Positions 25,350-44,081 of a stretch of DNA of 64,000 nucleotides are shown piece by piece. Source of the DNA: Fibrobacterota bacterium. Its GTDB lineage: Bacteria; Fibrobacterota; Fibrobacteria; UBA11236. Within the stretch, counting starts at the first letter, position 1, and every line of letters begins with the position of its first letter. The position numbers were made by a program, and so were the translations under genes. Under the pieces are notes generated by a model that saw nothing but the letters and a program-made list of their open reading frames with translations, was not told where the DNA came from and searched no databases. The stretch spans positions 1-64,000 of the forward strand of contig JAEKLQ010000043.1 of assembly GCA_019509785.1 (NCBI GenBank). Reading direction: 5' to 3'.

Positions 25350-25409
25350 ATGGGGACTCTTAAAGCCGTTTGGTTCAACCGGTTGCGACTTTGCGGGGCC
25401 GAACGGTGA
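25350..25409 (+). CDS. possible 19-aa leader peptide before the TamB-like gene
   Basis: ATG at 25350, preceded by AAGG at short distance, opens a frame MGTLKAVWFNRLRLCGAER that stops with TGA overlapping the proposed GTG start of the TamB-like gene (GTGA). This arrangement would couple translation of the two. It may be chance, since the TamB-like start itself is not firm. Confidence 0.3.
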   Translation: MGTLKAVWFNRLRLCGAER

Positions 25410-28400: not shown

Positions 28401-29401
28401 TCCAGAACTTCCTTTTCAAGCACAAGATCGGATTCCGCGAGCTCCAGAAATCCATCGGCAAGGTCAAGGTGGACAAGCGTAAACGGCGGGCGAAACCGAT
28501 CGACCTCCAGCTCAACCTGGAAACCGCGGGGGCCAACAACCGTATCGAGACCGACGTGCTGCGCATGGCCTTCGCGGGCGATCTGGCGGTCCGCGGGGTC
28601 TACCCCTACACCCTGCTTAGCGGCGAATTCTCCTCCCTGAAAGGGGAGTTGGGCCAGACCAGCCAGTCGTACGACATCACCGACTTCGACCTCAAGTGGC
28701 AGAACGCCACGGTGGAGGAAGGCAAGGTGAGCGTGGAAGGCCGGAAGAAGCTTCGCATCAATTGCAAGCCCGAAACGGAACGCACCTGCAACGTGTACGT
28801 TAAGCTCGCCGGCCGCCTGGACGAGATGGCCTTCACCTACGATACGGATTGCGGGGCCAACAGCGGGGAAACCTTGGAGCCCACCGCGCTCATCAACTCG
28901 GTCAACCGCGGATGCTGGTCCGACGAAGACGTGGCCGGCGCGGGCAATGGCAATTACCGCGAGGCGGTCGTCGCCTTGCTTGAACCCACCCTCAACGAAA
29001 AGCTCACCAGCGTAGGGGAGAAATTCACCGGCGGCTGGATCAAGCGCACCTCCGTGACGGGAATCGGATCAACCGTGGCGCGCGATACCACGGGGAACGA
29101 GCCCTTGGCCCTGGGGGTCGAGACGAAGGAGAAATGGGGCGTAAGCGTCAAGGCCAGCGCGGGATATCACCCCGAAAAGCGCGAAGACAATACCACCTGG
29201 GAGAGCAAGGTGGCCGTGCAATGGCGCCCGCCTTTGGAAAAAGCCTCCGGGAATTCGGAATGGAAGCGGCGCGTCCGGGATCGCGTGACCCTGGAAGCCT
29301 CCGCCGAAACGCGGCCGGAAGAAAAAGTCACGAACGAGAATAAGGATGCGCGCATGCAAGTTGGGCTGCGCTACCGTTATAAATTCTGGAAACTCTGGTA
29401 A
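25406..29401 (+). CDS. TamB-like (AsmA superfamily) envelope protein
   Basis: The 1331-residue protein has one N-terminal membrane anchor (residues 6-27, LWLWGLALAPVVLLSAGYVL) and a very long beta-rich body typical of AsmA/TamB bridge proteins that carry lipids or assist barrel proteins between membranes. The last ~290 residues resemble the TamB C-terminal domain, ending RYRYKFWKLW like an outer membrane strand. A Lys-rich, Pro-rich insert lies near residue 985. GTG at 25406 is chosen for GGGG spacing and the ideal anchor; TTG at 25370 is the alternative. The adjacent downstream TamA-like gene, five bases away, strongly supports the assignment. Confidence 0.82.
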   Translation: MTRSRRLWLWGLALAPVVLLSAGYVLARAWLNHHLQREIAFGEYRLRMVNPALDWSLDFSADSIDLASPGVRVGTGPVTAAVRIWNSIASIKPSIKIGTDTVQVGLAARNPDAPSRKRNPKAPPIFPNLRLPFEFRVSARRLDLRIAGRELAAVLEPAMFSQGPKGIGCEWSGLEFPPPLAPPPASPPDTTRSPAATRIGYAAPGHASARWFGNRVRYQAQLEDSLGDFARWEGERRKSDLRDGRDSLEARLGGLRILAPWFRRGPPGFRDLYVNGSIGSGEHRTLKAKVIFTTPPVWVIARQRAELKLEMADSLGRMTLATHGPSGEVVYLQGRFRAPMSDSGGLAALLPRLSGEFAGYSRNVRFRIGRFILPGDAEIRKLRLLPGPTLEAQVRTRDSTVAEGRLFRRPDSSWAVSFEGKPSPREAWALRWTDTNLAYRSARVKGEAGREGLHVEAWVNQVRAYGCIADSVYASQAVDKSGYYLLASRIYGKEAVWPVEGQVLWKRVVAPGPVGAPVPPGAAAPIGATLPGGNAVPGVRHHHQVSLVFRTQHARYGAAEFAMPSRGDLRVRVDNLSAQKLPYARLPRLMALAPVVTGSFAWDIHARTGQVDADAALAFAGQDLQVRAKSRWDAALLTLNGLDVTLAGSTVRLQGAARMGGRQFWQAGKLRPGDIRSLSMEAHRFDAARLAPFAGPSWPVARGILDGRFSYSDSEGFGGSYRIDDLDLIPLRKRAALPQVVLEGRGASVVLTVRTVSPAYPWLNDSLRAEVADILGGAPAIKVDGVSEDGLTVRFRGRADGLRSMDGSLAVSGKATLPGGAGEIRDLRLGGHVSSPFSGGVLRGMTLDSGSFAGRYAIPGLDTQSFGGTLSLRGGRLLIQDLHANDRRGPTLAGEGECDLAGPLRVTARLRGDDLALSWPGVQKIVLRGAQASIRIDSAGLAAEASVDRAEFAASRAPITIRGNLEAMQIAYLQPPAPKGEKGDKAPAPGPELHVKARLQNFLFKHKIGFRELQKSIGKVKVDKRKRRAKPIDLQLNLETAGANNRIETDVLRMAFAGDLAVRGVYPYTLLSGEFSSLKGELGQTSQSYDITDFDLKWQNATVEEGKVSVEGRKKLRINCKPETERTCNVYVKLAGRLDEMAFTYDTDCGANSGETLEPTALINSVNRGCWSDEDVAGAGNGNYREAVVALLEPTLNEKLTSVGEKFTGGWIKRTSVTGIGSTVARDTTGNEPLALGVETKEKWGVSVKASAGYHPEKREDNTTWESKVAVQWRPPLEKASGNSEWKRRVRDRVTLEASAETRPEEKVTNENKDARMQVGLRYRYKFWKLW

Positions 29402-29406
29402 GCCGT

Positions 29407-31278
29407 TTGCACCCGAACCGATCCGTTCCCGCGCGCCTCCTATTCCGTATCGCGGTCCTGTCGCTTTGGGTCCATGCCGCCTATGGCGCACCCGTCTTAT
29501 TGAGCGGTAACGATAACGTGTCCCGCAGGAAGATCGAATCGGCCTTGACCGTTCCCGACCGGCCTTCCGCGCTTTCCCAAGAGGACTGGGAGGATTGGGT
29601 CGACGATGCCGCCCTTTCCATAACGGATCTGTACGGGGACATGGGGTACCTGGACGCCGCGGTGAAGATCGAACGGATCGCCGCCGACAGCGCGGGCGTA
29701 AGGCCCCAGGACGATCGCATCCGCATCGGGATCCGCGAAGGCGGACGATACCATTTCGGCTCCGTGACGGTGGCCGCGCCCGCAGGCTCCCCGCACGTGA
29801 TCGATCCCGAACGCTTGCAATCCCGCCCGGGCCGGCCCTTCGAGAAGGAATTGGTATTCCGCGATCGCAGCAAGCTCCTGAACGCGTACGGCGACCGCGG
29901 ATTCCTGCATGCGCGTTCCACCGAGAGATTGACCCCGGATACTTCCGCCAAGGCGGTGAATCTGGAATACGAAATCGACCCGGGACCCGCGGTCGTTCTC
30001 GACACCTTGATCTTCCGCAATCGTCGCGAAGACGATTCCACCGGCAAAGCCGGTATCACCAGTACCCGATTGCTGCGGACCTTGTTGGGCTTGCATCGGG
30101 GGGACACCGCTAGCCTGGCGGCGATTTCCGCCTATGAACGCAAGCTCAAGGCCTCACGCGCCTTCAACTACGCGCGCGTCCACGACAGCCTGCTTCCCGG
30201 CGGCGGCAGCGCGCTGATCCTCACCAGCGAGGAAAGGGTACCCGGCGAGGCCGACGGATCCGTTTTCCTGGAAACCCAATACGGCGCGGGGGTGGCGCTC
30301 AATTGGGGCCACGGCAACATGCTGGGAAATCTACATGAGGGGAAGTTGGGGGGATCGGTCGCGCAGCGTAAGCAAAGCGTCTATCTGGGTTACGCTTCGC
30401 CCCTCTTCTTCGGCACCCTGCTTCGCTTTGATGACGACTTGGTCGCCAACTGGTACCAGGACAGCCATCTGCAAAACGGCGTCGGGCCCTATAAAGGCGA
30501 TTTCGACATCACCAATTCCAGCAAGCTTTCGCGGGTCTTCTCCTCTTGGTCCCGGGGCTTAAGCAATACCGAGTTGGCCGGGGAAAGCCAGCGCGAGGAT
30601 TCCTCCCACGTCAATCGCTCTTTCAACCTCAACTTCATCAACACGGCCTTTTTCACTTTCCTCGATGCCCCCGCCAATCCTGGTAAAGGCGCGCGTTGGG
30701 CCCTCACCTGGGGCAATGGCGGAACCTTCGTCAAAGGCGGCAGCATCGATGTCCCCCTTTCCGATCGACACAATTGGCTGGAAATCGAGAGCGCCTACTT
30801 CCTTCCGGCATCCGAACACGTCAAGCTGGCGTTCCGGTTGGACGGCGGACGCTTCTTCGGGGCGGGCGAGCAGAACTCCGAGCGCTTTTTCCTGGGCGGC
30901 CCCCGTTCGGTGCGCAGCTATGGATGGCGGCAAATCTGCCCGGAGAAGGACAGTAACGGGGTTTGCCGGACGTCCGGCGTCGAGCCAGCCTATTACCTGG
31001 GTTCGTTCGAGATCCGCGCCAATCCTTTCACTCCAGCCTTCATCAACCCGGAGGGGCGATGGGCCTGGTTGTATGGACTGCAAGTGGTCCCTTTCACCGA
31101 TTACGGAGAGGTATGGGAAGTGGGAAGGAAAGTCACGGAGACGGGGAAGGGACTGGCTTTTGGCCTGGGATTACGCTATTCCCTGCTGTCCATCTTCAAC
31201 TTCAGGATAGATTACGCGGCCGATAACTGGCAAAGAACGCATTCCCAATGGATTCTCGATTTGGCCCAGGCCTTCTAG
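29407..31278 (+). CDS. TamA/BamA-like outer membrane protein (Omp85)
   Basis: The 623-residue protein has a signal peptide (LLFRIAVLSLWVHAAYG, cleavage near residue 27), POTRA-type repeats over about residues 40-270, and a C-terminal 16-strand type barrel. GGPRSVRSYGW near residue 498 corresponds to the conserved lid-loop motif of Omp85 proteins, and the chain ends in Phe. It lies directly after the TamB-like gene and should form the outer membrane half of the same machine. The start is a TTG five bases after the upstream stop. Confidence 0.88.
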   Translation: MHPNRSVPARLLFRIAVLSLWVHAAYGAPVLLSGNDNVSRRKIESALTVPDRPSALSQEDWEDWVDDAALSITDLYGDMGYLDAAVKIERIAADSAGVRPQDDRIRIGIREGGRYHFGSVTVAAPAGSPHVIDPERLQSRPGRPFEKELVFRDRSKLLNAYGDRGFLHARSTERLTPDTSAKAVNLEYEIDPGPAVVLDTLIFRNRREDDSTGKAGITSTRLLRTLLGLHRGDTASLAAISAYERKLKASRAFNYARVHDSLLPGGGSALILTSEERVPGEADGSVFLETQYGAGVALNWGHGNMLGNLHEGKLGGSVAQRKQSVYLGYASPLFFGTLLRFDDDLVANWYQDSHLQNGVGPYKGDFDITNSSKLSRVFSSWSRGLSNTELAGESQREDSSHVNRSFNLNFINTAFFTFLDAPANPGKGARWALTWGNGGTFVKGGSIDVPLSDRHNWLEIESAYFLPASEHVKLAFRLDGGRFFGAGEQNSERFFLGGPRSVRSYGWRQICPEKDSNGVCRTSGVEPAYYLGSFEIRANPFTPAFINPEGRWAWLYGLQVVPFTDYGEVWEVGRKVTETGKGLAFGLGLRYSLLSIFNFRIDYAADNWQRTHSQWILDLAQAF

Positions 31279-31370: not shown

Positions 31371-31928
31371 ATGGCCCTTGCCAAGAAATTGCACCTATTC
31401 GGCGCCGCCTTGATCCTGGCGCTGGCCCTACCGGGCCTCTCGCGCGGAGAGGTGAAGGGGAGCTGCAGCCAAGACGCGGATAACCCCCCGGCCCGCGGTC
31501 AGATGGGATCCGTTAGCGTCATTACCACCCCGGAAAAGGCCGTTGTCTCCCTCAACGGGGAGAGGCTCGGGATCACTCCCGTCGACACCGCATATCCCAC
31601 CGGACGCTACAGCCTCATCATCATGCTCAATGGCGAAGAACTGGTGAAGGAGCGCATCAACGTTTGCGCCGGCGAGAAGACCACCTGGGAAGGCCCCTTG
31701 AAAATGCCTTACGGTAGCGTGGCCGTGAAAACCAATCCCTTGAAGATCAACGCCATCGTCTACGTGGATGGCGAACAGGTGGGAACCACCAAGGGCGGGG
31801 TCCTGACCATCAACCGGCTCGAAGCCGGCACGCGCGTCTTCAAGATCACCCACGGGAAAAGGCGCAAAGAAATGTCCGTGAACGTTCTTCCCGAAGAGAC
31901 CGTCGATTTGAACGTGGATCTTAAGTAG
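31371..31928 (+). CDS. exported PEGA-domain protein
   Basis: The 185-residue protein has a signal peptide (residues 1-26, LFGAALILALALPGLSRG) and two PEGA-type repeats, GSVSVITTPEKAVVSLNGE near residue 45 and GSVAVKTNPLKINAIVYVDG near residue 115. PEGA repeats are beta-sandwich modules of bacterial surface and lipoprotein-like proteins, often linked with carbohydrate or S-layer contact. GGAGG precedes the start. A bidirectional terminator follows, so it is a single-gene unit just before the large envelope operon. Confidence 0.85.
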   Translation: MALAKKLHLFGAALILALALPGLSRGEVKGSCSQDADNPPARGQMGSVSVITTPEKAVVSLNGERLGITPVDTAYPTGRYSLIIMLNGEELVKERINVCAGEKTTWEGPLKMPYGSVAVKTNPLKINAIVYVDGEQVGTTKGGVLTINRLEAGTRVFKITHGKRRKEMSVNVLPEETVDLNVDLK

Positions 31929-32069: not shown

Positions 32070-32144
32070 TGGAGGCGACAAGCGGATTCGAACCGCTGAA
32101 TAAAGCTTTTGCAGAGCTCTCCCTTACCACTTGGGTATGTCGCC
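32070..32144 (-). tRNA. tRNA-Cys(GCA)
   Basis: The minus strand gives a 75-base cloverleaf. Acceptor arm GGCGACA pairs with TGTCGCC, the anticodon loop CTGCAAA gives GCA (cysteine), the T arm contains CGGTTCGAATCCG, and CCA is encoded. Downstream on its strand lies the bidirectional terminator. Confidence 0.96.
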
Positions 32145-32340
32145 GCGAGCCTGAAGTTAAAAAAAGCTAGCGGAAAATCAATTAAATCACGCTATCCAAG
32201 AGTCCAAGCGTCGGTACTTTTTTCAATTACCGGACCTCTTTTCCCGGGCATTGTCTATTTTAAGGGGAAATGGCATACAAGCTGAAAACCCGATTGATGG
32301 CGCGTGCACGACCTGGCGCATGCGGATGGGCCGCGGCTTG

Positions 32341-33456
32341 ATGAAGCGCATCCTGCTCCTGGCGTTAGCTATGTGCGGCAGCATGCCATGGGCCTCAACT
32401 TCCCCTTCCGATTCTCTCCGCGGCCTCGGCCGCATCGCCGTCTTGGATCTGGTGGATTTGACGGACAATACCCAGAAGCCCGAGTTCTCGGATGCCTTGA
32501 GGGCCGCTCTTTCGGCGGGCGGTACCTGGGCCGTTCTCCAGAGGGACTCCGTTTCCAAACGCCTCGGCGAATTCAATATCAATCCCCGCCAAGGCTGCAA
32601 TAATCCCCAATGCGGTTTCGATATCGGGAACGTGGTGCAGGCCGAGTACGTGGTCTACGGGACGGCCACCCCCTTGGCTTCGGTGGAAGCGGTCTCCCTT
32701 AAGCTGCTGCACATTCCCACGGCCCGGATCGTTTGGACCAAGGTGCTGGAAGCGGATGGGACGACGGACGCGGATCGCCAACGCTCGCTGGAGAAGGCGT
32801 TCGCCGCCTGCGCCGCCGAGATCGCCAAACTCAAACCCGACACGGAAAAGGGCAAGCACGGGAAATCCCTGGCCGTCTTCGATCTGAGCGAGAACTCCCC
32901 CCAGTCGCGCGCTTTCTTCGAACGGGTCTGCACCCGCATTTACGGCAATCCGGCGTACGATCTCATGAGCCCCACCGAGCTCGCGGAGTTGCTATCGGCG
33001 CTGGAGATCAATAAGTATTCGGTGACGCCGTCCCTCGAGAACATGATCGGGTTGGGGCAGAAGTTGGGAGTGTCCAGCCTCCTGTATTCACGCCTTTACC
33101 GGGATGGCCGCAGCTACGTTTACCGTCTGGCCATGTACGATGTCGCCGCCAAGTCCCTGGTCCTCGAGTTGCCTCCGCAACCCTCCGAGGATCTGATTAA
33201 ACTACTGGACTACGAAAAGGTTTTTTTCAATACTCTGTTCAATAAGGAAAAAGACTCGCCGGCCACCGCAGCGGTCAAGGACGGAAGCAAATCCAACAAG
33301 GCGCTTTGGATATCCCTTGGGGTGCTCGGAATCGGCGGGGGAGTGGCGGCTTACTGGGTGGAGAACCTTCACAAGGAAGACAACAGGCCAGGGACCAGCG
33401 GGACGGGCACGGGCACGATTCCTCCGCCCCCTAATCCACCCTCCGAAACCCAGTAG
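32341..33456 (+). CDS. CsgG/FlgO-like exported protein
   Basis: The 371-residue protein begins with a signal sequence (MKRILLLALAMCGSMPWAS) and a domain with IAVLDLVDLTDNTQKPEFSD near residue 30 and LQRDSVSKRLGEF near residue 67, the pattern of CsgG/FlgO-type envelope proteins that gather at the outer membrane. A second, similar half follows from about 185 (SLAVFDLSEN). A membrane-like stretch (ALWISLGVLGIGGGVAAYWV) lies near residue 325, and the tail is Gly/Pro-rich. The ATG at 32341 is inferred from the signal peptide, since no strong ribosome-binding site is seen. It precedes the envelope/ABC operon by 48 bases and may belong to it. Confidence 0.7.
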   Translation: MKRILLLALAMCGSMPWASTSPSDSLRGLGRIAVLDLVDLTDNTQKPEFSDALRAALSAGGTWAVLQRDSVSKRLGEFNINPRQGCNNPQCGFDIGNVVQAEYVVYGTATPLASVEAVSLKLLHIPTARIVWTKVLEADGTTDADRQRSLEKAFAACAAEIAKLKPDTEKGKHGKSLAVFDLSENSPQSRAFFERVCTRIYGNPAYDLMSPTELAELLSALEINKYSVTPSLENMIGLGQKLGVSSLLYSRLYRDGRSYVYRLAMYDVAAKSLVLELPPQPSEDLIKLLDYEKVFFNTLFNKEKDSPATAAVKDGSKSNKALWISLGVLGIGGGVAAYWVENLHKEDNRPGTSGTGTGTIPPPPNPPSETQ

Positions 33457-33504: not shown

Positions 33505-34761
33505 ATGAGCGATACGAATTTCAGCTACATGGAAGTATCCGCGAAGCGCAAGAAGCGGAACCAGTTCATTTCCGTCCTGATCATCATCGCCATCGTCCTC
33601 ATGGGCGTGATCGTATGGGGATGGATCGAGCTGCAGAAAAGCCGCAATGCGGAACGGATCAAGAACGCCCTCAACAGCCAGGTGGAGCCGGGATTCAAAG
33701 AGCCCGAAGCCACCGCCCCGGCCGCCGTACCTGCCCCCGAAACGAGCAGCATCAGCGTCCAGGATACGCAGCGTACCCCCGAACCGCCTCCTGTCGCGGT
33801 TCAACCGCCCAAAGCCGAACCCGCGAAGCCCATCGCCGCCGCGCCGGCCGTTAAACCGGCCAAGCCCCACAAGGAAATCGTAAAGGCCACTGAGCTTCCC
33901 CGGGAACCGGACGCGCCGGTCGCGGCCGTTCCCAAGGAAAAGCCGCATGCGCTCCCCAAGCCGAAGCCCGAGCCGAAACCGGCCGCGGTTCCCGCCCCGG
34001 AGCCCACGGTTGTCGCGATGCGCAAGCCCGAGCCCGCCCCGCCCACGACCAAGCCTGCGCCCGCCCCGGCCCCTACGGCCCCCGCCAAGGCGTTCGCTCC
34101 CGAAGATCTCCCCATCCCCGAGAACGCGGAAGCCACCGAGGAGGCGAAGAGCGCCGCCGTGGTCCCGGCGGCCCCGGCCGCTGCCCCGGCGGAATCCCCC
34201 AATGCCTCCAGCAATTTCAAGCTGGGGATGACGGCCTACCGGCAGCAGGATTTCGTCAACGCCATCCGCTCCTTTTCCGCCGTTCCCAGGCCCGCCTCCA
34301 AGAAGCGCGGGGCCGAGGACCGGGATGAATACGTGCAAGCCAATTTCCTGAAGGGCCTCTCCCTCTTGAAGGTCGGGCATCTGAGCGAAGCCGTCACCGC
34401 ATTCCAGAACGTCCTGGAGTACGAGAAATATTATCCCCTCGCCAACATGAATCTGGGGATCTGCTACGTCGAACTCAAGCAGTACGCCAAGGCCCATCAG
34501 GCTTTCGAGGCCGTCGTACGGGATCAAAGCTTCATCGAACCGGCCGTCTTCGACGATGTCATGCAACGGACCAAGTATTTCTGGGCCCTGGCCTGGACCC
34601 GCCTTTATAAGAACGCAACCAATCCCGATAAGCAAAACTTCTACCGCCAGCAGGCCGTGTTGAAGTGGAAGGACTACGAAGTTTGGTTTTCCAACAACGA
34701 CAAGTACAAGAGCGAGAACTTGAAGGCGGAGAACTACCTCAAGAGCCTGAGCAGCCTCTGA
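33505..34761 (+). CDS. membrane-anchored Pro/Ala-rich TPR protein
   Basis: The 418-residue protein has a basic N-terminus (SAKRKKRNQ), one membrane helix (residues 21-42, FISVLIIIAIVLMGVIVWGW), a Pro/Ala/Lys-rich spacer to about residue 230 that could span the periplasm in the manner of TonB, and TPR-like repeats at 235-345 (AFQNVLEYEKYYPLANMNLG). The architecture suggests an inner membrane protein reaching towards the outer membrane and binding partners by its TPRs. It is the first gene of a closely packed eight-gene run. AGGGA lies before the ATG; a TATATT at 33486-33491 is probably too close to be its promoter. Confidence 0.8.
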   Translation: MSDTNFSYMEVSAKRKKRNQFISVLIIIAIVLMGVIVWGWIELQKSRNAERIKNALNSQVEPGFKEPEATAPAAVPAPETSSISVQDTQRTPEPPPVAVQPPKAEPAKPIAAAPAVKPAKPHKEIVKATELPREPDAPVAAVPKEKPHALPKPKPEPKPAAVPAPEPTVVAMRKPEPAPPTTKPAPAPAPTAPAKAFAPEDLPIPENAEATEEAKSAAVVPAAPAAAPAESPNASSNFKLGMTAYRQQDFVNAIRSFSAVPRPASKKRGAEDRDEYVQANFLKGLSLLKVGHLSEAVTAFQNVLEYEKYYPLANMNLGICYVELKQYAKAHQAFEAVVRDQSFIEPAVFDDVMQRTKYFWALAWTRLYKNATNPDKQNFYRQQAVLKWKDYEVWFSNNDKYKSENLKAENYLKSLSSL

Positions 34762-34784
34762 GGCGGAGGGAGAAAAAGGTTTCC

Positions 34785-36080
34785 ATGAATATGAGGATCC
34801 TCAATTGCGCCTGGCTCCTGGCCGCATCGGCCGGGTCCGCCTTGGCGGCCCCGGAGGCCACGGACGCCAGCAAGACCGTGGTGGTGGTCTCCAGCGACAA
34901 CCCCAAGATTTCCGGGCAATTGTTCCACCCGAAAATCTGCCCCAACCTGGTCAACTACGTGGCCTTCGTGAGGCAGATCCGGGACAACCGGCAGATCTGG
35001 CTGTACGATTCCAAGACCAAGGAGCTGACCCAGATTTCCCCGAAGGCGACCACGAGCAAGATCGAGGACGTCAACATCGACGAGGATACCGACCAGAGCA
35101 TTTTCAAGGGCTATGAGGACGAACTCGAATGGTGCCCGGTCCTGCATGACGGGGTGCAATACTTCGCCTACGTCAGCGCCGGCGGCGTGAACAACCACGA
35201 TGTTTACATCAGCGCCATCGGATCCAAGGTGCATACCCGCCTTACCTTCGACCCGGAAGTGGACGGCACCCCGCGTTGGTCGCCGGACGGCAAGAGCATG
35301 GTGTTCGTATCGGCCCGCACCGGCGACGGCGATTTATACCTGGTCCCGGACGTCACCAAGTACCTGGGAAAGGAAATCAAGCGCGAGTCCAAGGGCGCCT
35401 TCGAACGCTTGACCACCAATCCCGGCGAAGAGATGTTCCCGTCGTATTCCCCGGATGGCCGGTTCCTGGCTTATACCACCCGCACTAGCGGCAATAAGAA
35501 GCGCGGGCTCTATACCATCGCCTTGATGGACTTCAAGGATGATCGGAAGATCAAGATCTTCAACAACCAGATCACCAACAATAAGAGCCATCCTTCCTGG
35601 TCCTTCGACGGGCACTTCGTGGCCTACCAGATCTCCAACGATCTGAACGATCGGGTGGTGGATATCGGCGTGATGCAGTTGAAGATCGATCCGCAAGGGC
35701 ATTTGGTGGAAGTGGCCGACCTGCACGGCAAGACCCCGAAAATCGCCGAGAACGTCTATCCGAGCTCGTACACCGGTCCAACCTGGCTACCGGGATCGCG
35801 GGCCATCGTGTATGCCAAGCGCGAATCCAACCGCTTGAACCCCTTGGAAGTCGTGAACCTGGAGAAATGGCTTTACGATCAGAATTACACCCGCGCGACC
35901 ATCACCACGCAATCCAGCATACACCGCGATGTGGATTGCCTGCCCAACCACCCCATCATCGTATTCGCCGGACAATCGGGCCTGGATTTCCAGATTTTCG
36001 CCTCGGTCCTGATCGGCTCCGATCTGAGGCTGGGCGCGGAGAAGGTGGATTTGGCCAAGTATGATCTTTTCAAGAACTAG
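34785..36080 (+). CDS. periplasmic PD40 beta-propeller (TolB-like)
   Basis: The 431-residue protein has a signal peptide (residues 1-22, ending GSALA) and WD40-like PD40 repeats: TPRWSPDGKSMVFVSARTGD near residue 163, FPSYSPDGRFLAYTTRTSG near residue 216, HPSWSFDGHFVAYQ near residue 267. TolB propellers bind Pal and proteins in transit; here the chain lacks a clear TolB N-terminal domain. It lies 23 bases after the TPR-anchor gene with AAGG before its ATG, and its last codons overlap the next start by 20 bases, implying joint expression. Confidence 0.85.
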   Translation: MNMRILNCAWLLAASAGSALAAPEATDASKTVVVVSSDNPKISGQLFHPKICPNLVNYVAFVRQIRDNRQIWLYDSKTKELTQISPKATTSKIEDVNIDEDTDQSIFKGYEDELEWCPVLHDGVQYFAYVSAGGVNNHDVYISAIGSKVHTRLTFDPEVDGTPRWSPDGKSMVFVSARTGDGDLYLVPDVTKYLGKEIKRESKGAFERLTTNPGEEMFPSYSPDGRFLAYTTRTSGNKKRGLYTIALMDFKDDRKIKIFNNQITNNKSHPSWSFDGHFVAYQISNDLNDRVVDIGVMQLKIDPQGHLVEVADLHGKTPKIAENVYPSSYTGPTWLPGSRAIVYAKRESNRLNPLEVVNLEKWLYDQNYTRATITTQSSIHRDVDCLPNHPIIVFAGQSGLDFQIFASVLIGSDLRLGAEKVDLAKYDLFKN

Positions 36081-37393
36081 ATTCCTCGCCCTCCTCGTAA
36101 TCGTTTCCGCCCTGGCGCGGATCGAAGCGAAGGAGGATCCCGTGGAGTTGCTCCGCCGCCATCGCTACGATGAGGCGATCGCGCAGCCTGTATGGCACCT
36201 ATTCGGGATTCGCCAACGCCATCATGTCCGAGTATTACGCGGATCTTATCGAGACCGGCGCCAATGCCATCCATTACACCTACATGGGTCAGATCCAATA
36301 CCAGGCGGGCAAGTACGCCGAGGCCAAAACCTCCTTCGAAAAGGCGCGCAAGCTGGGCGGCGGGCCCGCGGCCATTCAGGATCTGAACGAGGTGTTTCTT
36401 CATTCTACCCGCAAGCGTTTAGGGGAGAATCCGGGCGAAGTCCCGGCCGTCAAGGACGTCGGGGCCCAATGGCAGGCCCTCGAGCTCAATGGGGGGGACG
36501 CCTCCAAAGGTCCTGCCGGCACATCGCAGCGGGGTCGGCGTAGCCGCCTCAGCCTGCTCATCCGTTCGGCCAATCCGGACGCCAGTGAAATCGAGACCAG
36601 CCTCAAGGCCGTCCTCAACGACGCCCAGCAGCCGGAGACCTACCTGGATGAGGGGAAGAATACCCAGATCAATTTCTACGATCCCTTCCTGATGCAAACG
36701 TTGTCGGACTCGTACTACACTTTGAGCAAGTTGACCAATCTGCGAATCAAGCAGGATGAATCCCGGTTCCCCGACCTCGCGGCGAAGTTCAATACCGATC
36801 AGTCCCTGGCCGAGTCGTGCATCCGTCTAGGGCAATACCGGGAAGCGGCCGGATATCTGCCGAAGGATTCCCCCGACATCGAAACCCAACTGCTGCGGGC
36901 GGAGGTCTTCGCCAAGACGGGAAAGGTGGACCAGGCCAAGTCGCTTTTGGAATCGCTCGCGAACGGCACGAAGAACGCCTCGGACCGCAGGGATATCGCG
37001 GACTGTTACTATCTTTTGGGTCTCGATCTCGAGAAGGGATTGAAGCTGGCCGGCCTCGCCGTGAAGGATAAGAACGGTCCGAATTATTATCGGACATACG
37101 CGAATTTGCTATTTGCCACCGGCCAAACCGAAACTGCCATGCAGCAATACGCCAAGGGGTACAAGATCGAGTACCGGAATCGCATCGACCAAATCGATCC
37201 GGAATACATGTCCGATTACGCTTTCGGCATCTTCAAGACCAATAAACTCAGGTACGAGGAGATCGTGGAGACCCTGTACCATCTCCAAAAGGAATTCCCC
37301 GCTTGCCGGCAGATGCATTACTGCATGCAGGGGATTTCGGCGGGGCTGGCCAGAAGCTACGAATCCCAGCGGATTTTCCGGAAGGGCGGATAA
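36061..37393 (+). pseudogene. exported TPR protein with apparent frameshift
   Basis: The reading frame from ATG 36061 gives a signal peptide (RFLALLVIVSALARIEA) and the start of a TPR (LLRRHRYDEAIA), then loses sense near 36180. The +1 frame then continues logically with SLYGTYSGFANAIMSEYYAD and runs to 37393 with TPR-like helices. One extra base near 36178-36186 (GATCGCGCAG) would explain this. Joined, the protein is about 443 residues. Both flanks fit the surrounding operon, and the downstream ATGs are poor starts. It could be a sequencing error, a true recent mutation or programmed frameshifting; I cannot tell which. Confidence 0.75.
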
Positions 37394-37396
37394 GGG

Positions 37397-39019
37397 ATGC
37401 GAATGAAGTCTGAAATCACGAGTCTTATTTGCTTGGCGGCGGCCCTGGTTGTCGGAACTACCGCTTTGGCTTCCGCGGCGGGCAAAGGGGAAAACCTGAA
37501 GGGCGGCCGGCTGATCTATGCCGAGCCCATCCTGCCCGATACCTACGATCCCATCACCACCTCGGATAACGAGACTTCGCTGCGCCTGTCCGAATTGATG
37601 TTCGAGTCCCTGGTCTATATCGATTACCGCGGGGAGGTAAAGGGTCGCCTCGCCGAGAAGTGGAACGTCTTCAACGGCAATCAGCGGATCACCTTCTATC
37701 TGCGCAAGGACGTGAAATGGCATGACGGGACGCCCTTCACGGCCAACGACGTGAAGTTCACCTACGACGCCATCATGAATCCCCTTTCCGACGTCCGCCC
37801 GGAGAGCCGCCAGGCGTTGGAGGTCATCAAAAGCGTATCGGTGCTGGGCGATTACGTGGTGAAGTTCGATTTCAATACGAGCGTAGCCGAACCCGAGCGT
37901 CGCTTCCTTTTCAAGATCGTCCCCGAGCATTTGTTCGGCGGGAAGCCGGTATTGTCCAAGTTCAGCAAGTTCTCGAAGAACCCGATCGGAACGGGCTATT
38001 ACAAGTTCGATCGCGAGACCAAGAATCATGACGTGATCCTGGCCGCCTTCACCGACCATTACGGCGGCCCGCCCAACATCGGCGAAATCAAGATGGTGTA
38101 CCAGCCGGAGATGTCGCTGCTGGTGCAGAGCCTGCTTTTGAACGCCATCGATCTGGTGGTGGAAGTGCCCCCGGGCAAGATCGCGGAGATCGCCAACACG
38201 GGCAAATTCATGATCATCCCGTACAACTCGCTGGCTTTCGCGTTCTTCGGGTACAACAACAACAACCCGATCTTGAGGATCAAGGAAGTGCGCCAGGCGT
38301 TCACCCTCGGGATGGATCGCAACAAGATGCTGGAGGATATCTACTTCGGCAAGGGCGAAGTCATCTCGGGCCCTTTCTCCCCGGCCTCCTGGGGCTATAA
38401 TCCCGACGTGGCCCCTTGGCCCTATGATCCGGCCCGCGCCAAGGCCCTGCTCGACAAGGTCGGCATCAAGGACACCGATGGGGACGGCATCCGCGAGTAC
38501 AAGGGCATGCCCCTCAAGTTCAAGCTGAAGATCCCCATCTATAGCGGCAACGAAGGCGGCCTCTCGGTCTGCCTCCGCTTCCAGAACTACATGAAGGCGC
38601 TGGGCGTCCAGGTCGAATTGCAACATCGGGAATACGAGAAGTGGAAGGAAGAAGTGAAGGCCAAGCACGATTTCGACATCGTGTTCGCCGAATGGCTGTT
38701 CGACAACTCCTCCGACATTTCCTCCCTGTTCCACTCCTCCAAGAACCAGCCCCCCACCGGCGACAATTTCATCTCCTATAAGAATCCCAAGGTGGACAGC
38801 CTGCTCCAGAAATTCTCGACCACCATCAACCACGAAGTGCGCCGCCGCATCAATTACGAACTGCACGAGATCCTGGCCGAGGAATGCCCCTACACCTTCC
38901 TCTGGACCCTGGAGAAAAACGCGGCCATCGAGAATAAGGTCAAGAAGGCGGTGGTCCACCCCTATCGGTTCTTCACTTTCATCAACGATTGGTTCATTCC
39001 GGAAGACGAAAGGGATTGA
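37397..39019 (+). CDS. peptide/nickel-type ABC transporter substrate-binding protein
   Basis: The 540-residue protein is a family 5 extracellular solute-binding protein (OppA/DppA class). It has a cleavable signal (LICLAAALVVGTTALASAAG) without a lipobox cysteine. Family hallmarks are PDTYDPITTSDNET near residue 48, AEKWNVFNGNQRITFYLRKD near residue 88, KWHDGTPFTANDVKFTYDA near residue 110 and RQAFTLGMDRNKML near residue 300. Substrate may be a peptide, sugar or nickel. It starts three bases after the TPR gene; an alternative ATG two codons later has better ribosome spacing. Confidence 0.92.
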   Translation: MRMKSEITSLICLAAALVVGTTALASAAGKGENLKGGRLIYAEPILPDTYDPITTSDNETSLRLSELMFESLVYIDYRGEVKGRLAEKWNVFNGNQRITFYLRKDVKWHDGTPFTANDVKFTYDAIMNPLSDVRPESRQALEVIKSVSVLGDYVVKFDFNTSVAEPERRFLFKIVPEHLFGGKPVLSKFSKFSKNPIGTGYYKFDRETKNHDVILAAFTDHYGGPPNIGEIKMVYQPEMSLLVQSLLLNAIDLVVEVPPGKIAEIANTGKFMIIPYNSLAFAFFGYNNNNPILRIKEVRQAFTLGMDRNKMLEDIYFGKGEVISGPFSPASWGYNPDVAPWPYDPARAKALLDKVGIKDTDGDGIREYKGMPLKFKLKIPIYSGNEGGLSVCLRFQNYMKALGVQVELQHREYEKWKEEVKAKHDFDIVFAEWLFDNSSDISSLFHSSKNQPPTGDNFISYKNPKVDSLLQKFSTTINHEVRRRINYELHEILAEECPYTFLWTLEKNAAIENKVKKAVVHPYRFFTFINDWFIPEDERD

Positions 39020-39025
39020 TCGGCC

Positions 39026-39499
39026 ATGGTTGCAAGCATGACGGCACGGAAACCCGCACCTAGGAGCAAGGGCTCGTTCAAACTTTCCGCCCGGGCCTTT
39101 AGCCTCCGGGGACTCGGTCTCGCGTTGCTGCCATTCCTGGCGGCCGGTTGCGCGACAAGCATGAGCGGGGTGGTTGTGAAGCCCGACGGATCCAAGCTCA
39201 CCCAACCGGACGTGGTGGTATACACCAGCCCCCGTACGGAATCGGTGCGCGCGGACAACGACGGCGAATTCAAGATCTCCAAGAACGTGATCGACGAGAG
39301 CGAGTACACCTTGATCGCCGAGGACAAGGACGGCAACATGGGATACGTGCGCTCCTTCAAGCCCAAGAAGGGCGCGAATAAGAACATCGTCGTCCGCCTC
39401 TCGCGCGAGATCGACGGCAAGGATGCCGTGATGGAAGGCGGCCCGAACGAGGGCAACACCACGGGCCTGGGCGAGAAAATCCTGAAATCGAGTCCTTGA
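39026..39499 (+). CDS. small lipoprotein with CarboxypepD_reg-like fold
   Basis: The 157-residue protein has a long basic N-terminus and a lipobox (LLPFLAAGC, Cys at about residue 42), so should be anchored in the envelope. The mature part, with SGVVVKPDGSKLTQPDVVVY and SVRADNDGEFKIS, looks like a carboxypeptidase-regulatory-like beta sandwich found in outer membrane receptors and lipoproteins. It lies between the binding-protein gene and the permease genes, which suggests it works with the transporter, perhaps as a docking lipoprotein. Six bases separate it from the gene before. Confidence 0.75.
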   Translation: MVASMTARKPAPRSKGSFKLSARAFSLRGLGLALLPFLAAGCATSMSGVVVKPDGSKLTQPDVVVYTSPRTESVRADNDGEFKISKNVIDESEYTLIAEDKDGNMGYVRSFKPKKGANKNIVVRLSREIDGKDAVMEGGPNEGNTTGLGEKILKSSP

Positions 39500-39514
39500 C
39501 CGGCGTTGCCGGAA

Positions 39515-40423
39515 ATGCGCGCCATCGCCAAAATCGTCGGGTACTTCGCCGGCTCGCTGGCGCTGGTTTCCCTTCTCATCTTCGCCATCGTCCATCTCAC
39601 CCCGGGCGATATAGCCGAAATCCATAACCTTTCCGCCGCCACGGCCCACTCCCTGTATCTGGATCGGCCCTTGGCATTGCAGTACCTCCTTTGGGCCCGC
39701 GGATGCCTGGGATTGGACTTCGGGATCTCGATGGTGAACGGGACCCCCGTTTCCTCCCTGATCGCCGAATACGCAGTGCCCACCCTGATGCTCACTTTCG
39801 GATCGCTGTTCCTTTCGCTCCTCATATCCATTCCGCTCGGGGTTTACCGCGGCCTGCGTCCGGTGAGTCCTCTCGGCAAGTTCATCAGCTTGGCGGTCTA
39901 TACCCTGTCCTCCGTGCCGGTATTCGTGCTCGGGTATATCGTTCTCGCCATCGTATTCGGCTTCTTCCGCTTTTACGTCACGGCGCCTCCCGACGGCCCC
40001 TTCCGGTTCTGGCCCTGGTTCGGCTATTACTCGCTTCCCATCGCCGTGCTGGCGGTGGGCAACGGCACCATCGGGGAATTCGTGCGCTTCATTTCCCTCG
40101 AGGTGCAGAGCGTCAACGGGGCCATGTACATCAAGGCCGCGCGCGCCCGCGGCAGCCGGCTCTGGCGGCATTTCTTCCGCTCCATGGTCTTGCCCATCTT
40201 CAACATCGTGGTCGCCAATATGGCCGTGCTGCTGGGCGGCATCGTGGTGGTGGAACGGATCTTCAATTTCCACGGCCTGGGATGGCTGAGCTGGGAAGCC
40301 ACCTTGAAGCGGGACTTCCCCGTGATCATGGGGATTACCCTGGTCATGGCCTTTCTCATACGGCTTTTCATGCTCGCCAACGATCTCTTGGCGGTTTGGC
40401 TCGATCCCAGGATGCGGGAATGA
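39515..40423 (+). CDS. ABC transporter permease, DppB/OppB type
   Basis: The 302-residue protein has six predicted helices, an N-terminal helix plus LTPGD (periplasmic loop motif of DppB), GVYRGLRPVSPLGKF, and the EAA-type loop YIKAARARGSRLWRHFFRSM near residue 205, which contacts the ATPase. VERIFNFHGLGWL follows, as in OppB. The ATG at 39515 is chosen; a TTG nine bases upstream is possible. The stop overlaps the start of the second permease (ATGA). Confidence 0.92.
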   Translation: MRAIAKIVGYFAGSLALVSLLIFAIVHLTPGDIAEIHNLSAATAHSLYLDRPLALQYLLWARGCLGLDFGISMVNGTPVSSLIAEYAVPTLMLTFGSLFLSLLISIPLGVYRGLRPVSPLGKFISLAVYTLSSVPVFVLGYIVLAIVFGFFRFYVTAPPDGPFRFWPWFGYYSLPIAVLAVGNGTIGEFVRFISLEVQSVNGAMYIKAARARGSRLWRHFFRSMVLPIFNIVVANMAVLLGGIVVVERIFNFHGLGWLSWEATLKRDFPVIMGITLVMAFLIRLFMLANDLLAVWLDPRMRE

Positions 40424-41451
40424 AGCGCGGGCCTTTCCGAATATTCCTGAAACAGCCCGGGGGCTGGCGCATCCTCGCCGGCGGCATCCTGGTATTCTTA
40501 TTGGCGCTGGCGACCCTGACCGGATCGGCCTGGACGCCCTATTCCGCCGGGGAAATGGATATTGACCATCAATTGGCGCCGCCTTCCGTACATTGGCTGA
40601 AACGCCTGATGGCCACCGATGCGGCCTTGAAGGCGCAAGAACGGGAGTCGGGCGGCAGCAATCGCGCGCCGGTAGCCTCTCCCGGTACCGATGAGGAAGA
40701 CCTGGGTTACTTGAAGGGCGGGGGGGAGGCGGTCCCGCCGAAAGCGGCGGCGCCGCAAGTGCCATTGGGTAAGCGCCATTGGCTCGGGACCGATCGCAAT
40801 GGGCGGGACATGTTGGCCTTACTGGTGGCCGGGGCCCGCAATTGCTTTCTGCCCGGCTTGGTCGCCTGCGCCATCGCGTTGGGGCTGGGCGTCCCCCTGG
40901 GCCTGCTCTCGGGCTATTACGGCGGGCGCGTGCGCAAGATCGTCGGCACCTTCAACAGCACCATCCTTTCCATGCCGCGCCTGGTGCTGATCCTGGTGGT
41001 GATTTGCGCCTTGGAGCCCAACGTGTATTACACCATGGGCGTGCTCGGAGCGACCCTCATCCCGCGCGTATCGGGACTGATCGCCACGCGCGTCCGCATC
41101 CTCTCCAACATGGGATTCATCCTGGCGGCGAAGGAAGCGGCGCTCTCCGACTTCAAGATCCTGTACCGCCATCTTTTTTGGTACCAGAACCGGGCCGTAT
41201 TCTTCATCCAGTTCTCCCTGATCATGGCTGAATCCATCCTGACGGAAACCACCCTGAGCTACCTGCAATTCGGCACCAAGCCTCCCGAGGTCTCCTGGGG
41301 CAATATCATCGAGGGCAGCCAGATGTCCTTTTTCGGCGGCATCTACTGGATCACCTTTTTCCCGGCCATGGCCATCATCCTGGCCATCCTGGGCTTCTTC
41401 TATTTGGGCGACGGCCTGAACGCGCGCCTGGCCTTCCGGGAAGGACGCTAA
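40420..41451 (+). CDS. ABC transporter permease, DppC/OppC type, with insertion
   Basis: The 343-residue permease has the OppC N-terminal helix and then LAPPSVHWL; the matching family sequence HWLGTDRNGRDMLALLVAGA appears only after about 65 extra residues (55-115), which are Gly/Ala/Pro-rich and charged. Helices follow at about 145-345, with the EAA loop (NMGFILAAKEAALSDFKIL) near residue 230 and YLQFGTKPPEVSWGN near residue 283. The insertion lies in the periplasmic loop region where OppC meets its binding protein. It overlaps the first permease by four bases. Confidence 0.9.
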   Translation: MKRGPFRIFLKQPGGWRILAGGILVFLLALATLTGSAWTPYSAGEMDIDHQLAPPSVHWLKRLMATDAALKAQERESGGSNRAPVASPGTDEEDLGYLKGGGEAVPPKAAAPQVPLGKRHWLGTDRNGRDMLALLVAGARNCFLPGLVACAIALGLGVPLGLLSGYYGGRVRKIVGTFNSTILSMPRLVLILVVICALEPNVYYTMGVLGATLIPRVSGLIATRVRILSNMGFILAAKEAALSDFKILYRHLFWYQNRAVFFIQFSLIMAESILTETTLSYLQFGTKPPEVSWGNIIEGSQMSFFGGIYWITFFPAMAIILAILGFFYLGDGLNARLAFREGR

Positions 41452-41454
41452 GCG

Positions 41455-43587
41455 ATGTCCGTGACGGCAACGGGACCGGGGCCTTTACTCACCGTACGCG
41501 ACCTTTCCATCTGGTTCGGCGGCGGCGGCCGCTACCTGAAGGCGGTGAATCGCGCCAGCCTGGAATTGGGCCGCGGCGAGATCGTCGGATTGATCGGGCA
41601 GTCGGGCAGCGGGAAGACGACCTTGGCCATGGGGCTCCTGGGCTTGATCAAAGGGTATCCGGGCGTATGGGAAGGGGAAGCCCGGTTGGATGGCAAAAGC
41701 CTTTTGCCGGACCTGCCGCGCTTCATCATCCGCAAGGGCGATCAGGTGGACAAACGCTACGTCGCCTGCCAGAGGGCGCATCGCGCGCAGTTGCAGGGCG
41801 TGCTGGGACGGGAGATCGCCACCATCTTCCAGGAACCCAAGGCCTCCCTCGATCCGTTCTATACCGTGGGCGAACATATGATCGAGGCCTTGGAACGCAA
41901 TCTCGATCGCCATGGCGCGGCGGGCCGGGCCGGCCTCAAGGATATCGCCGTAGGCCTGCTGAAGGACGTGGGACTGGTGGACGCGGAGAACCTGTGGGGC
42001 CTGCATCCCCATGAGATCAGCGGGGGCATGGCCCAACGCGTCATGATCTCCATGGCCCTATGCGCCAAGCCCAAGCTGCTGATCGCCGACGAGCCTTCCA
42101 CCTCATTGGACGTGACCACCCAAGCCAAGTTGTTGCAACTGTTCCTGCATTTGCGGGACAAGCACGGGCTATCCATCCTCATCATTTCCCATGACATCGG
42201 GGTCATCCAGGAAATCAGCGCGCGCATCTACGTCATGCATCGCGGCGCGGTGGTGGAGCAAGGCGCTTCCGCCCACGTGCTGATGGCGCCCAAGCATCCC
42301 TACACGGCGAGCCTTTTGGCCTCGTTCTCCCGTTTCGGCGAGAAGCTGCCGGCCCCGCCCGTCGACCCGGATGCCGGGAAAGGCTGCGCCTATCGGGATA
42401 TGTGCGCGGCCTATCGGGGCCTTTTGACGGCGGAGCAACGGGCCCTCTGCGAGGCCGAAAAGCCGGCGGCGAAGGCGGAGGCGGACAAGGTGGAAAGCCC
42501 GGCTCTGCGGGCCGCGGTGGGTGATTGGGCCAAATGCCATTACCGGGATCTCGACAAGTCCCATGGGCCCAGCGTGCCTTCCTATGTCAATCTGGACTTT
42601 CTGATGGGGAGGGACGGGAAGGAAGAAAACCTCGTCGAGGTTCGCGATCTGCGGAAACGCTACACCCAAGGCCGTCGCTCCTTCCTGGCCCTGAACGACA
42701 TTTCCTTGGACATCCCCAAGGGCCGTACCTACGGCTTGGTGGGGGAAAGCGGCTCGGGCAAGTCCACCCTCGGCTTGTCCCTGATGGCCTTGCAGGAGGC
42801 CGATGCCGGTAGCGTGAAGTACAAAGGCGAAGACTTGCGGAATGCGGGCCACGCGCGCATGCGGGAACTGCGCAAGGAAATCCGCATGCTCTTCCAGCAT
42901 CCCGAAGGCGTGCTCAACGGAGGCATGACCATCGCGGACATACTGGCCGAAGGGCTGGAGCGCGAAAAGGGTTTGGGTAAGCAGGAGCGCGATCGGCGCG
43001 TAGCCGAGGCCCTGGAGCAGGTGCGGCTCGATCCGTCCCATGGCAACCGCTATCCGGCCAACCTGAGTTCGGGGGAAAAGCAACGCGCCACCATCGCGCG
43101 CGCGCTCATCACGCGGCCCGCCTTCCTGGTCTGCGATGAGCCGGTGGCCAGCCTGGACCTCGCCATCCAAAGCCAGGTCATGTCCCTGCTCAAGGAGTTC
43201 CAGCGGCACTTAGGGCTCACCTACCTTTTCATCTCCCACAACCTGACCCTGGTGAAAATCCTGGCTTACCGCATCGGGGTCATGTACATGGGGTATTTGG
43301 TGGAAGAGGCGACGGTGGAACGATTCACCGTGGCCGGCGCGAAGCATCCCTACACGCGCTTGCTGCTCGCATCTTCGCCCACGCTCGATCCGGCCATCCG
43401 GGAAGTTCTGGCGCAGTATCCGGACGTCGAGCCGGCTCGCCTGGAAGCGGGCTGCCCCTTCCGCAACCGCTGCCCCGTTTATTTGTCCAAGCGCTCTTCC
43501 CGATGCGAAACCGTCATGCCGCCGCTCGCCGAGGTCGCGCCCGGTTCCCGCGTGGCCTGCCATTTCCCGGTGGGATCGGAAGGCTAA
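41455..43587 (+). CDS. fused double ABC ATPase, DppD-DppF type
   Basis: The 710-residue protein carries two complete ABC ATPases. The first (about residues 10-300) has Walker A GQSGSGKTT, signature ISGGMAQRV and Walker B LLIADEPSTSLD. The second (about 395-700) has GESGSGKST, LSSGEKQRA and FLVCDEPVASLD. After each domain is the oligopeptide-transporter tail with cysteines (GCPFRNRCPVY near residue 670), a site that binds an iron-sulphur cluster in some members. The stalks between them hold a third Cys set (CAYRDMC and KCHYRD). It should power the two upstream permeases. It begins three bases after the permease stop and is the last gene of the run, followed by a terminator hairpin. Confidence 0.95.
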   Translation: MSVTATGPGPLLTVRDLSIWFGGGGRYLKAVNRASLELGRGEIVGLIGQSGSGKTTLAMGLLGLIKGYPGVWEGEARLDGKSLLPDLPRFIIRKGDQVDKRYVACQRAHRAQLQGVLGREIATIFQEPKASLDPFYTVGEHMIEALERNLDRHGAAGRAGLKDIAVGLLKDVGLVDAENLWGLHPHEISGGMAQRVMISMALCAKPKLLIADEPSTSLDVTTQAKLLQLFLHLRDKHGLSILIISHDIGVIQEISARIYVMHRGAVVEQGASAHVLMAPKHPYTASLLASFSRFGEKLPAPPVDPDAGKGCAYRDMCAAYRGLLTAEQRALCEAEKPAAKAEADKVESPALRAAVGDWAKCHYRDLDKSHGPSVPSYVNLDFLMGRDGKEENLVEVRDLRKRYTQGRRSFLALNDISLDIPKGRTYGLVGESGSGKSTLGLSLMALQEADAGSVKYKGEDLRNAGHARMRELRKEIRMLFQHPEGVLNGGMTIADILAEGLEREKGLGKQERDRRVAEALEQVRLDPSHGNRYPANLSSGEKQRATIARALITRPAFLVCDEPVASLDLAIQSQVMSLLKEFQRHLGLTYLFISHNLTLVKILAYRIGVMYMGYLVEEATVERFTVAGAKHPYTRLLLASSPTLDPAIREVLAQYPDVEPARLEAGCPFRNRCPVYLSKRSSRCETVMPPLAEVAPGSRVACHFPVGSEG

Positions 43588-43619: not shown

Positions 43620-43643
43620 AAGGCGCCGCGGGAGCGGCGCCTT
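43620..43643. terminator. strong hairpin terminator between convergent genes
   Basis: AAGGCGCCGC (43620-43629) and GCGGCGCCTT (43634-43643) form a perfect 10-bp stem with GGGA loop. On the minus strand TTTTCT follows it, ending the zinc-ribbon gene; on the plus strand no T-run is present, but the stem could still stop the ABC operon transcript. Confidence 0.75.
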
Positions 43644-43688: not shown

Positions 43689-44081
43689 TCACATATGTTC
43701 GATGAAGTCGTTCACGTCCTTGAAGCGATTGAGGTCGATCTTCAGGTTCGTGATATCATCGGTCATGAAGTGGCTTTCCCGGACGGGGGAGCCCGCCTTA
43801 TGGGTGGCCCGCGCCTCGGCCGGCTTCACGATCAAGGAAGTGTGGCCCTTGCTGTTTTCGCGGGCATTGATGTTCTTCAGGATTCCCTGGACCGTCGTCA
43901 TCTGGAGATTGCCCTGGATCTTCTCGATCTCGCTTTCGTCGATCTCGAAGGTCTTGCCGTAATAGTACATCAGGGCGGAATTGCAAGAAGGACAGTTGAG
44001 GACGATCATGTACGCCTCGGAGCCCAGGAAGAGCTCGCTAACCTCTTTGCAATGGGGGCATTTCACGTAGAGGGGTTTCAT
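43689..44081 (-). CDS. zinc-ribbon protein, 130 aa
   Basis: The N-terminus has two CxxC pairs (VKCPHCKEVSEL and LNCPSCNSALM, about residues 7-36), a zinc ribbon. The rest is helical and charged (IDESEIEKIQGNL, TNLKIDLNRFKDVNDFIEHM) with no recognised domain. Such proteins may bind nucleic acid or another protein. The start is supported by AGGAG six bases upstream. Possible promoter: a TATTTT box about 25 bases before it. Unknown function. Confidence 0.8.
   Translation of the reverse strand: MKPLYVKCPHCKEVSELFLGSEAYMIVLNCPSCNSALMYYYGKTFEIDESEIEKIQGNLQMTTVQGILKNINARENSKGHTSLIVKPAEARATHKAGSPVRESHFMTDDITNLKIDLNRFKDVNDFIEHM

Follow-up and report, generated by a model that had tools for sequence, protein, structure and literature searches.

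Peptide importers of the Opp/App/Dpp type, as exemplified by AppA of B. subtilis (1xoc) and DppABCDF of E. coli, combine a binding protein of the SBP_bac_5 family with two BPD_transp_1 permeases and OppD/OppF-type ATPases that carry a four-Cys motif. Type I ABC importers such as these are normally thought to use a binding protein that either diffuses freely or is tethered to the membrane. The Tol-Pal system, a quite different envelope machine, contains in TolA, TolB and CpoB a membrane-anchored protein with a Pro-rich spacer, a propeller and an exported TPR protein, besides the TolQ/TolR motor and the lipoprotein Pal with its OmpA domain. A third point of comparison is PorE (PG1058), a scaffold protein of the type IX secretion system (T9SS) in which TPR, beta-propeller and carboxypeptidase-regulatory-like (CRD) domain types are found (PMC5053529). 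The locus described here recalls all three, and its parts are encoded together in a single block.

The window, i.e., the whole stretch of 64,000 nucleotides that was analysed, comes from contig C43 of a 5.4-Mb Fibrobacterota genome in 106 contigs (G000). Reading its open frames gave eight genes, E to L, on one strand at 33505-43587, as the earlier note on this DNA had described, and the protein types proposed there agree with the Pfam and NCBIfam matches, which run in the order TPR, PD40/TolB-like propeller, TPR, SBP_bac_5, CarboxypepD_reg-like lipoprotein, two BPD_transp_1 permeases and a fused ATPase. Together with their neighbours, the features are the following:

31371-31928, plus strand: C, exported PEGA-domain protein of 185 aa (PF08308, E=3.7e-14), separated from the block by tRNA-Cys
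32070-32144, minus strand: tRNA-Cys(GCA), found by ARAGORN and the Rfam tRNA model, a boundary marker and no gene of the module
32209-32268, plus strand: conserved block of ~60 nt upstream of D, from an alignment of six same-genus genomes
32341-33456, plus strand: D, exported CsgG/FlgO/TolB_N-like protein with a hydrophobic helix at its C terminus; it opens the likely operon
33505-34761, plus strand: E, inner-membrane anchor, Pro/Ala-rich spacer and TPR domain
34785-36080, plus strand: F, exported TolB-like PD40 beta-propeller of 431 aa (PD40, E=3.7e-18)
36061-37393, plus strand: G, exported TPR superhelix protein, disrupted in the window, ~475 aa in relatives
37397-39019, plus strand: H, soluble periplasmic solute-binding protein, SBP_bac_5 of the Opp/App/Dpp type (PF00496, E=6.7e-77)
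39026-39499, plus strand: I, lipoprotein with LAAGC lipobox and CarboxypepD_reg-like beta-sandwich
39506-40423, plus strand: J, OppB/DppB-type permease (PF00528, E=5.2e-25; NF045470 below its cut-off)
40420-41451, plus strand: K, OppC/DppC-type permease (PF00528, E=2.9e-7)
41455-43587, plus strand: L, fused OppD-OppF ATPase
43620-43643, no strand assigned: hairpin, also noticed earlier, between L and the convergent gene at 43689-44081 (minus strand), a probable terminator

The junctions in the window are short, with a gap of 23 bases between E and F, an overlap of 20 between F and G, gaps of 3 (G-H) and 6 (H-I), a gap at I-J of 15 bases counted from the ATG of J at 39515 or 6 from the TTG at 39506, an overlap of 4 (J-K) and a final gap of 3 (K-L). 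The gaps and the gene order reported before thus stand, but the tight packing turned out to be special to the window's genome, as in same-genus relatives the distances reach 203 (E-F), 211 (G-H) and 190 bases (I-J), with the F-G overlap as the one constant. Because intergenic distances vary so widely between relatives, the evidence for a unit is the gene order and not the packing.

The transporter half is, by its sequence, an Opp/Dpp/App-type peptide ABC importer. H scores 259.5 bits against the curated SBP_bac_5 cut-off of 32.4, J and K score 88.7 and 30.8 against the 26.4 of BPD_transp_1, and in L both the OppD- and the OppF-type half have intact Walker A, Walker B and signature motifs at both nucleotide sites, so that the integrity of the transporter motifs is well supported. 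The second half of L contains the four-Cys (4Fe-4S type) motif in all members of the window's family, f1. What sets the system apart from its known counterparts is the fusion of the ATPases (in f1; in G010, a carrier from a second family, the two halves appear as separate frames), a variable hydrophilic insert that follows the first helix of K, and the several envelope genes and the lipoprotein in the same block. The closest structures to H in the PDB are B. subtilis AppA, which is the best match, and DppA; D436 of H aligns with D436 of DppA, and this Asp is invariant in nine orthologues. In DppA, D436 binds the amino group of the peptide (PMC12136057). The carboxylate-binding R383 of DppA falls in a gapped stretch of the H alignment, in which no Arg is aligned with it, and for this reason the ligand of H is not certain. 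A lack of this Arg would suit a protein that binds longer peptides, and the cargo could also be something other than a peptide, as members of SBP_bac_5 also bind sugars, nickel and heme.

The envelope half resembles Tol-Pal at first sight, since a membrane-anchored protein with a Pro-rich spacer, a TolB-like propeller and an exported TPR protein follow one another in the same order as TolA, TolB and CpoB. In E, a single membrane helix (aa 17-45) is followed by a Pro/Ala-rich spacer at aa ~85-225 (about 140 residues, 27% Pro) and a TPR region at aa ~235-418. F matches TolB best, in sequence as well as in fold, with TolB as the top fold match of a model whose mean pLDDT of 61.8 is low and makes fold matches only indicative; its profile matches are PD40 and DPPIV_N only, TIGR02800 remains far below cut-off and TolB_N is not matched. 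In contrast to Tol-Pal, the block is devoid of TolQ/TolR, of a TonB_C/TolA_C domain and of Pal: TolQ/TolR motor genes were looked for among the block genes and none was found, the MotA_ExbB copies of the genome being elsewhere, and I, which is CarboxypepD_reg-like (PF13620 in 9/9 orthologues, best E=1.4e-8) and ends in an invariant GEKILKSS motif, does not match Pal with its OmpA domain. Membership of the block in Tol-Pal was rejected, and E, F and G are not taken as Tol-Pal parts, because a complete Tol-Pal operon exists on contig C40 of the same genome, with TolQ, TolR, a TonB/TolA-like protein, TolB with both domains, a Pal-like lipoprotein and a CpoB-like TPR protein (TolR, TolA and Pal being assigned there by reading of the frames). 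The likeness to PorE is one of TPR, propeller and CRD types in a periplasmic or outer-membrane setting, whereas here these lie on separate polypeptides, are linked to an importer and come with no OmpA-type wall-binding domain that we could find; no single lipoprotein joins TPR, propeller, CRD and OmpA_C. D resembles the CsgG/FlgO/LpoB/TolB_N superfamily weakly, with a FlgO match in 7/7 orthologues (best E=0.0018) and further matches to TolB_N, CsgG and LpoB, all sub-threshold as to CsgG/FlgO membership (11.7 bits for D of the window vs. 22.6). Stand-alone paralogues of D occur elsewhere in these genomes, two of them in the window's own (G000:C31:70556-71413 and G000:C22:67937-68584).

Gene G is indeed a TPR protein, as proposed, but in the window it is not a single open frame. 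Its start (36061, MIFSRTRFLALLVIV...EDPVELLRRHRYDEAIA) is in one frame, 36061-36543, its body in another, 36170-37393, and the two can be joined only by bridging an 89-nt deletion. Alignment with all eight relatives, in each of which G is an uninterrupted frame of some 475 codons, places the deletion and frameshift near 36177, between '...gatgagg' and 'cgatcgcgcagcctg', and accordingly the profile is matched in the window in two pieces, at positions 7-40 and 65-474 of its 474. The body is about 67-77% identical to same-genus relatives, which fits an intact gene, so that the lesion either arose recently or is an artefact of assembly; G may be dispensable, given that it is broken in this genome, or the assembly may be wrong. 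An intact orthologue was modelled as a confident TPR superhelix (pLDDT 83), for which the PDB matches were generic only, and the RIFRKGG tail of G is conserved.

The E-L block is collinear in 9/168 Fibrobacterota genomes from two families and three genera, the window's genome included. Of the eight others, G001-G005 share its genus, G007 and G008 represent a second genus, and G010 comes from a second family of the order. In profile searches, orthologues of E, F and G were found in exactly these nine of the 168 genomes and always beside the transporter, so that the possibility that the first three genes usually live apart from it, which would have spoken against the earlier proposal, did not materialise in any of the 9/9 carriers. 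Orthologues of H (searched in 101 genomes) and I (in 61) are confined to the same nine. The sole exception to the co-occurrence of E, F and G is one extra E-like paralogue in G010 (C54:5122-6594, locus L129), which is 42% identical over the TPR part, has a different N-terminus and is not accompanied by other block genes. Outside the phylum, one pattern-based scan of a collection of 84,980 species' contigs, using two peptide patterns and leaving out the window's genome, found orthologues only in the same eight relatives; beyond these it gave only proteins of at most 29% identity, and in the three non-Fibrobacterota loci encoding such proteins E, F and G had no match. In these searches the module is confined to a single order of Fibrobacterota for which there are only metagenome-assembled genomes (MAGs), which is what all carriers appear to be, and in the literature no paper was found that describes a peptide importer combined with such envelope proteins. 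All seven genes measured (E-K) are under purifying selection, with dN/dS of about 0.02-0.19, and the most conserved members are the binding protein H (~94% within the genus) and the propeller F (~91%).

Two sister genomes, G006 and G009, present an exact empty site. The tamB-tamA pair, tRNA-Cys and, downstream, a zinc-ribbon-like gene of 130 aa, ACPS and a 410-aa gene are kept there, but C, D and all of E-L are absent, and no remnants of the module were detectable in a search of the two sites. The tRNA-Cys itself is found in all nine carriers and at both empty sites. In a four-gene tree, G006 and G009 are sisters (support 0.999) within the family whose eight other members carry the block. Since they nest among carriers, and since in the outgroup G010 E-L likewise adjoins this tRNA-Cys, the simplest history is that all these genes were lost once, in the ancestor of the pair. 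A tRNA-targeted genomic island was considered and rejected: the block lies on the 5′ side of tRNA-Cys, no integrase was seen, the order is old and a single loss fits better. As the empty sites lack C, D and the eight block genes, the unit comprises about ten genes, and C and D, which are collinear with the block in f1, belong to what is gained and lost in this family because both vanish with E-L, the PEGA gene even across the tRNA. The suggestion that the CsgG/FlgO-like gene at 32341 might also belong is hereby confirmed for f1. In G010, D and C are not beside the block, and the best D homologue is on another contig. This genetic unit is well supported by the comparisons and very probably real, and the importer and envelope halves, being inherited, kept and lost together, almost certainly work together.

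Two further features of the neighbourhood were observed in passing. Directly upstream of the module, at 25370-31278 of the window, lies a pair of TamB-like and TamA/Omp85 genes that all family members possess, the empty-site genomes included. Across the tRNA-Cys from the block in G010 (locus L068, 978-8591) is a lipoprotein-like giant of 2537 aa with many Asp-rich calcium-type repeats.

The ~60-nt block at 32209-32268, conserved across six genomes of the genus, has a core pattern that is found essentially nowhere else in the genomes tested, and the block is likely the promoter or leader of a D-L operon. Comparison of the E-F, G-H and I-J gaps revealed no conserved promoter-like block, and D-L is likely to form one predicted transcript. 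An Rfam search for riboswitches and RNA elements gave nothing above cut-off besides the tRNA. The E-F gap of some same-genus relatives, though not of the window, contains a 60-bp tandem, palindrome-like repeat (GTGGAGTTGCGAAGCAACTCCATAGCG...; L061 8700-8868, with equivalents in L055, L058 and L060).

The reading we tentatively favour, at somewhat less than even confidence, is that C and D-L work as one module, in which a peptide importer is fed by a scaffold of its own that spans the periplasm. H would serve as binding protein, J/K as channel and L as ATPase. E would be anchored in the inner membrane, its Pro-rich stalk spanning the periplasm and carrying the TPR domain, with the propeller F and the TPR superhelix G as exported adaptors and the lipoprotein I, probably together with D and C, at the outer membrane or wall. 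Such a scaffold would concentrate the binding protein or its cargo between the permease and a point of entry at the outer membrane. Scarce peptides several residues long could then be captured and passed efficiently to J/K/L. The protein types are well supported; the protein contacts, the outer-membrane placement, the hand-over and the peptide length class are what we infer. The trans-envelope assembly is plausible given the inner-membrane anchor and long Pro-rich spacer of E, the export of F and G and the lipoprotein nature of I, and the high conservation of H and F would be expected of parts with many contacts. Nothing in the analysis favours a motor role for the importer, which had also been suggested.

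The same genes could instead be a second Tol-like module for envelope maintenance, in which E, F, G, I, D and C would keep wall and outer membrane stable or remodel them while the importer recycles released muropeptides. The E-F-G order that recalls TolA-TolB-CpoB, the best match of F to TolB (in fold through a low-confidence model) and the weak TolB_N/LpoB/FlgO likeness of D all lean this way, as does the established uptake of wall-turnover peptides by Opp/Mpp-type systems. We nevertheless consider it unlikely, as the block is without TolQ/TolR, a TolA C-terminal domain or Pal, a complete Tol-Pal operon stands on C40 and loss of the module is tolerated in G006 and G009. Equally unlikely to our mind is that an ordinary peptide operon and an envelope operon are co-inherited neighbours that share a promoter and an ecological use with no physical coupling; the evidence for linkage is all genomic, the gaps are wide in several relatives and G010 has stand-alone D and E homologues, yet E, F and G co-occur perfectly over 168 genomes, the genes are lost jointly while the flanks stay, and in a different family E-L is retained next to tRNA-Cys without the remaining flanking genes.

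Less probable still is a sensor, in which binding protein and transporter would report the peptide supply to the envelope proteins and thereby alter wall, adhesion or surface properties. The very high conservation of the binding protein and the propeller would agree with it, and the short conserved tails of I (GEKILKSS) and G (RIFRKGG) resemble docking motifs, but no kinase, response regulator or anti-sigma gene is in the block and the ATPase sites look fully active. An accessory of the T9SS or gliding machinery, anchored by PorE-like domains, is very improbable: PorE does share the domain types (PMC5053529) and SprA-type proteins are present in these genomes, but SprA occurs in each of the 61 class genomes searched, vs. 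nine with the module, so that there is no correlation, and the block has no OmpA domain and no T9SS gene identified in it. The SprA-type proteins (TIGR04189) exceed the curated cut-off in 61/61 class Fibrobacteria genomes, an observation of its own, as several papers name the T9SS Bacteroidetes-specific.

An importer with its own scaffold could, in its boldest form, be an ATP-driven, TonB-independent machine for trans-envelope peptide uptake, whose TPR/propeller proteins couple it mechanically to the outer membrane, an idea we hold to be improbable as it stands. If true, outer-membrane capture and inner-membrane import would be physically coupled. A conserved unit of an importer and a TolA/TolB/CpoB-like set would be a direct and testable instance of an importer served by a periplasmic scaffold, with PorE-like domain types in a new context, and the natural empty sites and the sister genomes offer a ready comparative test.
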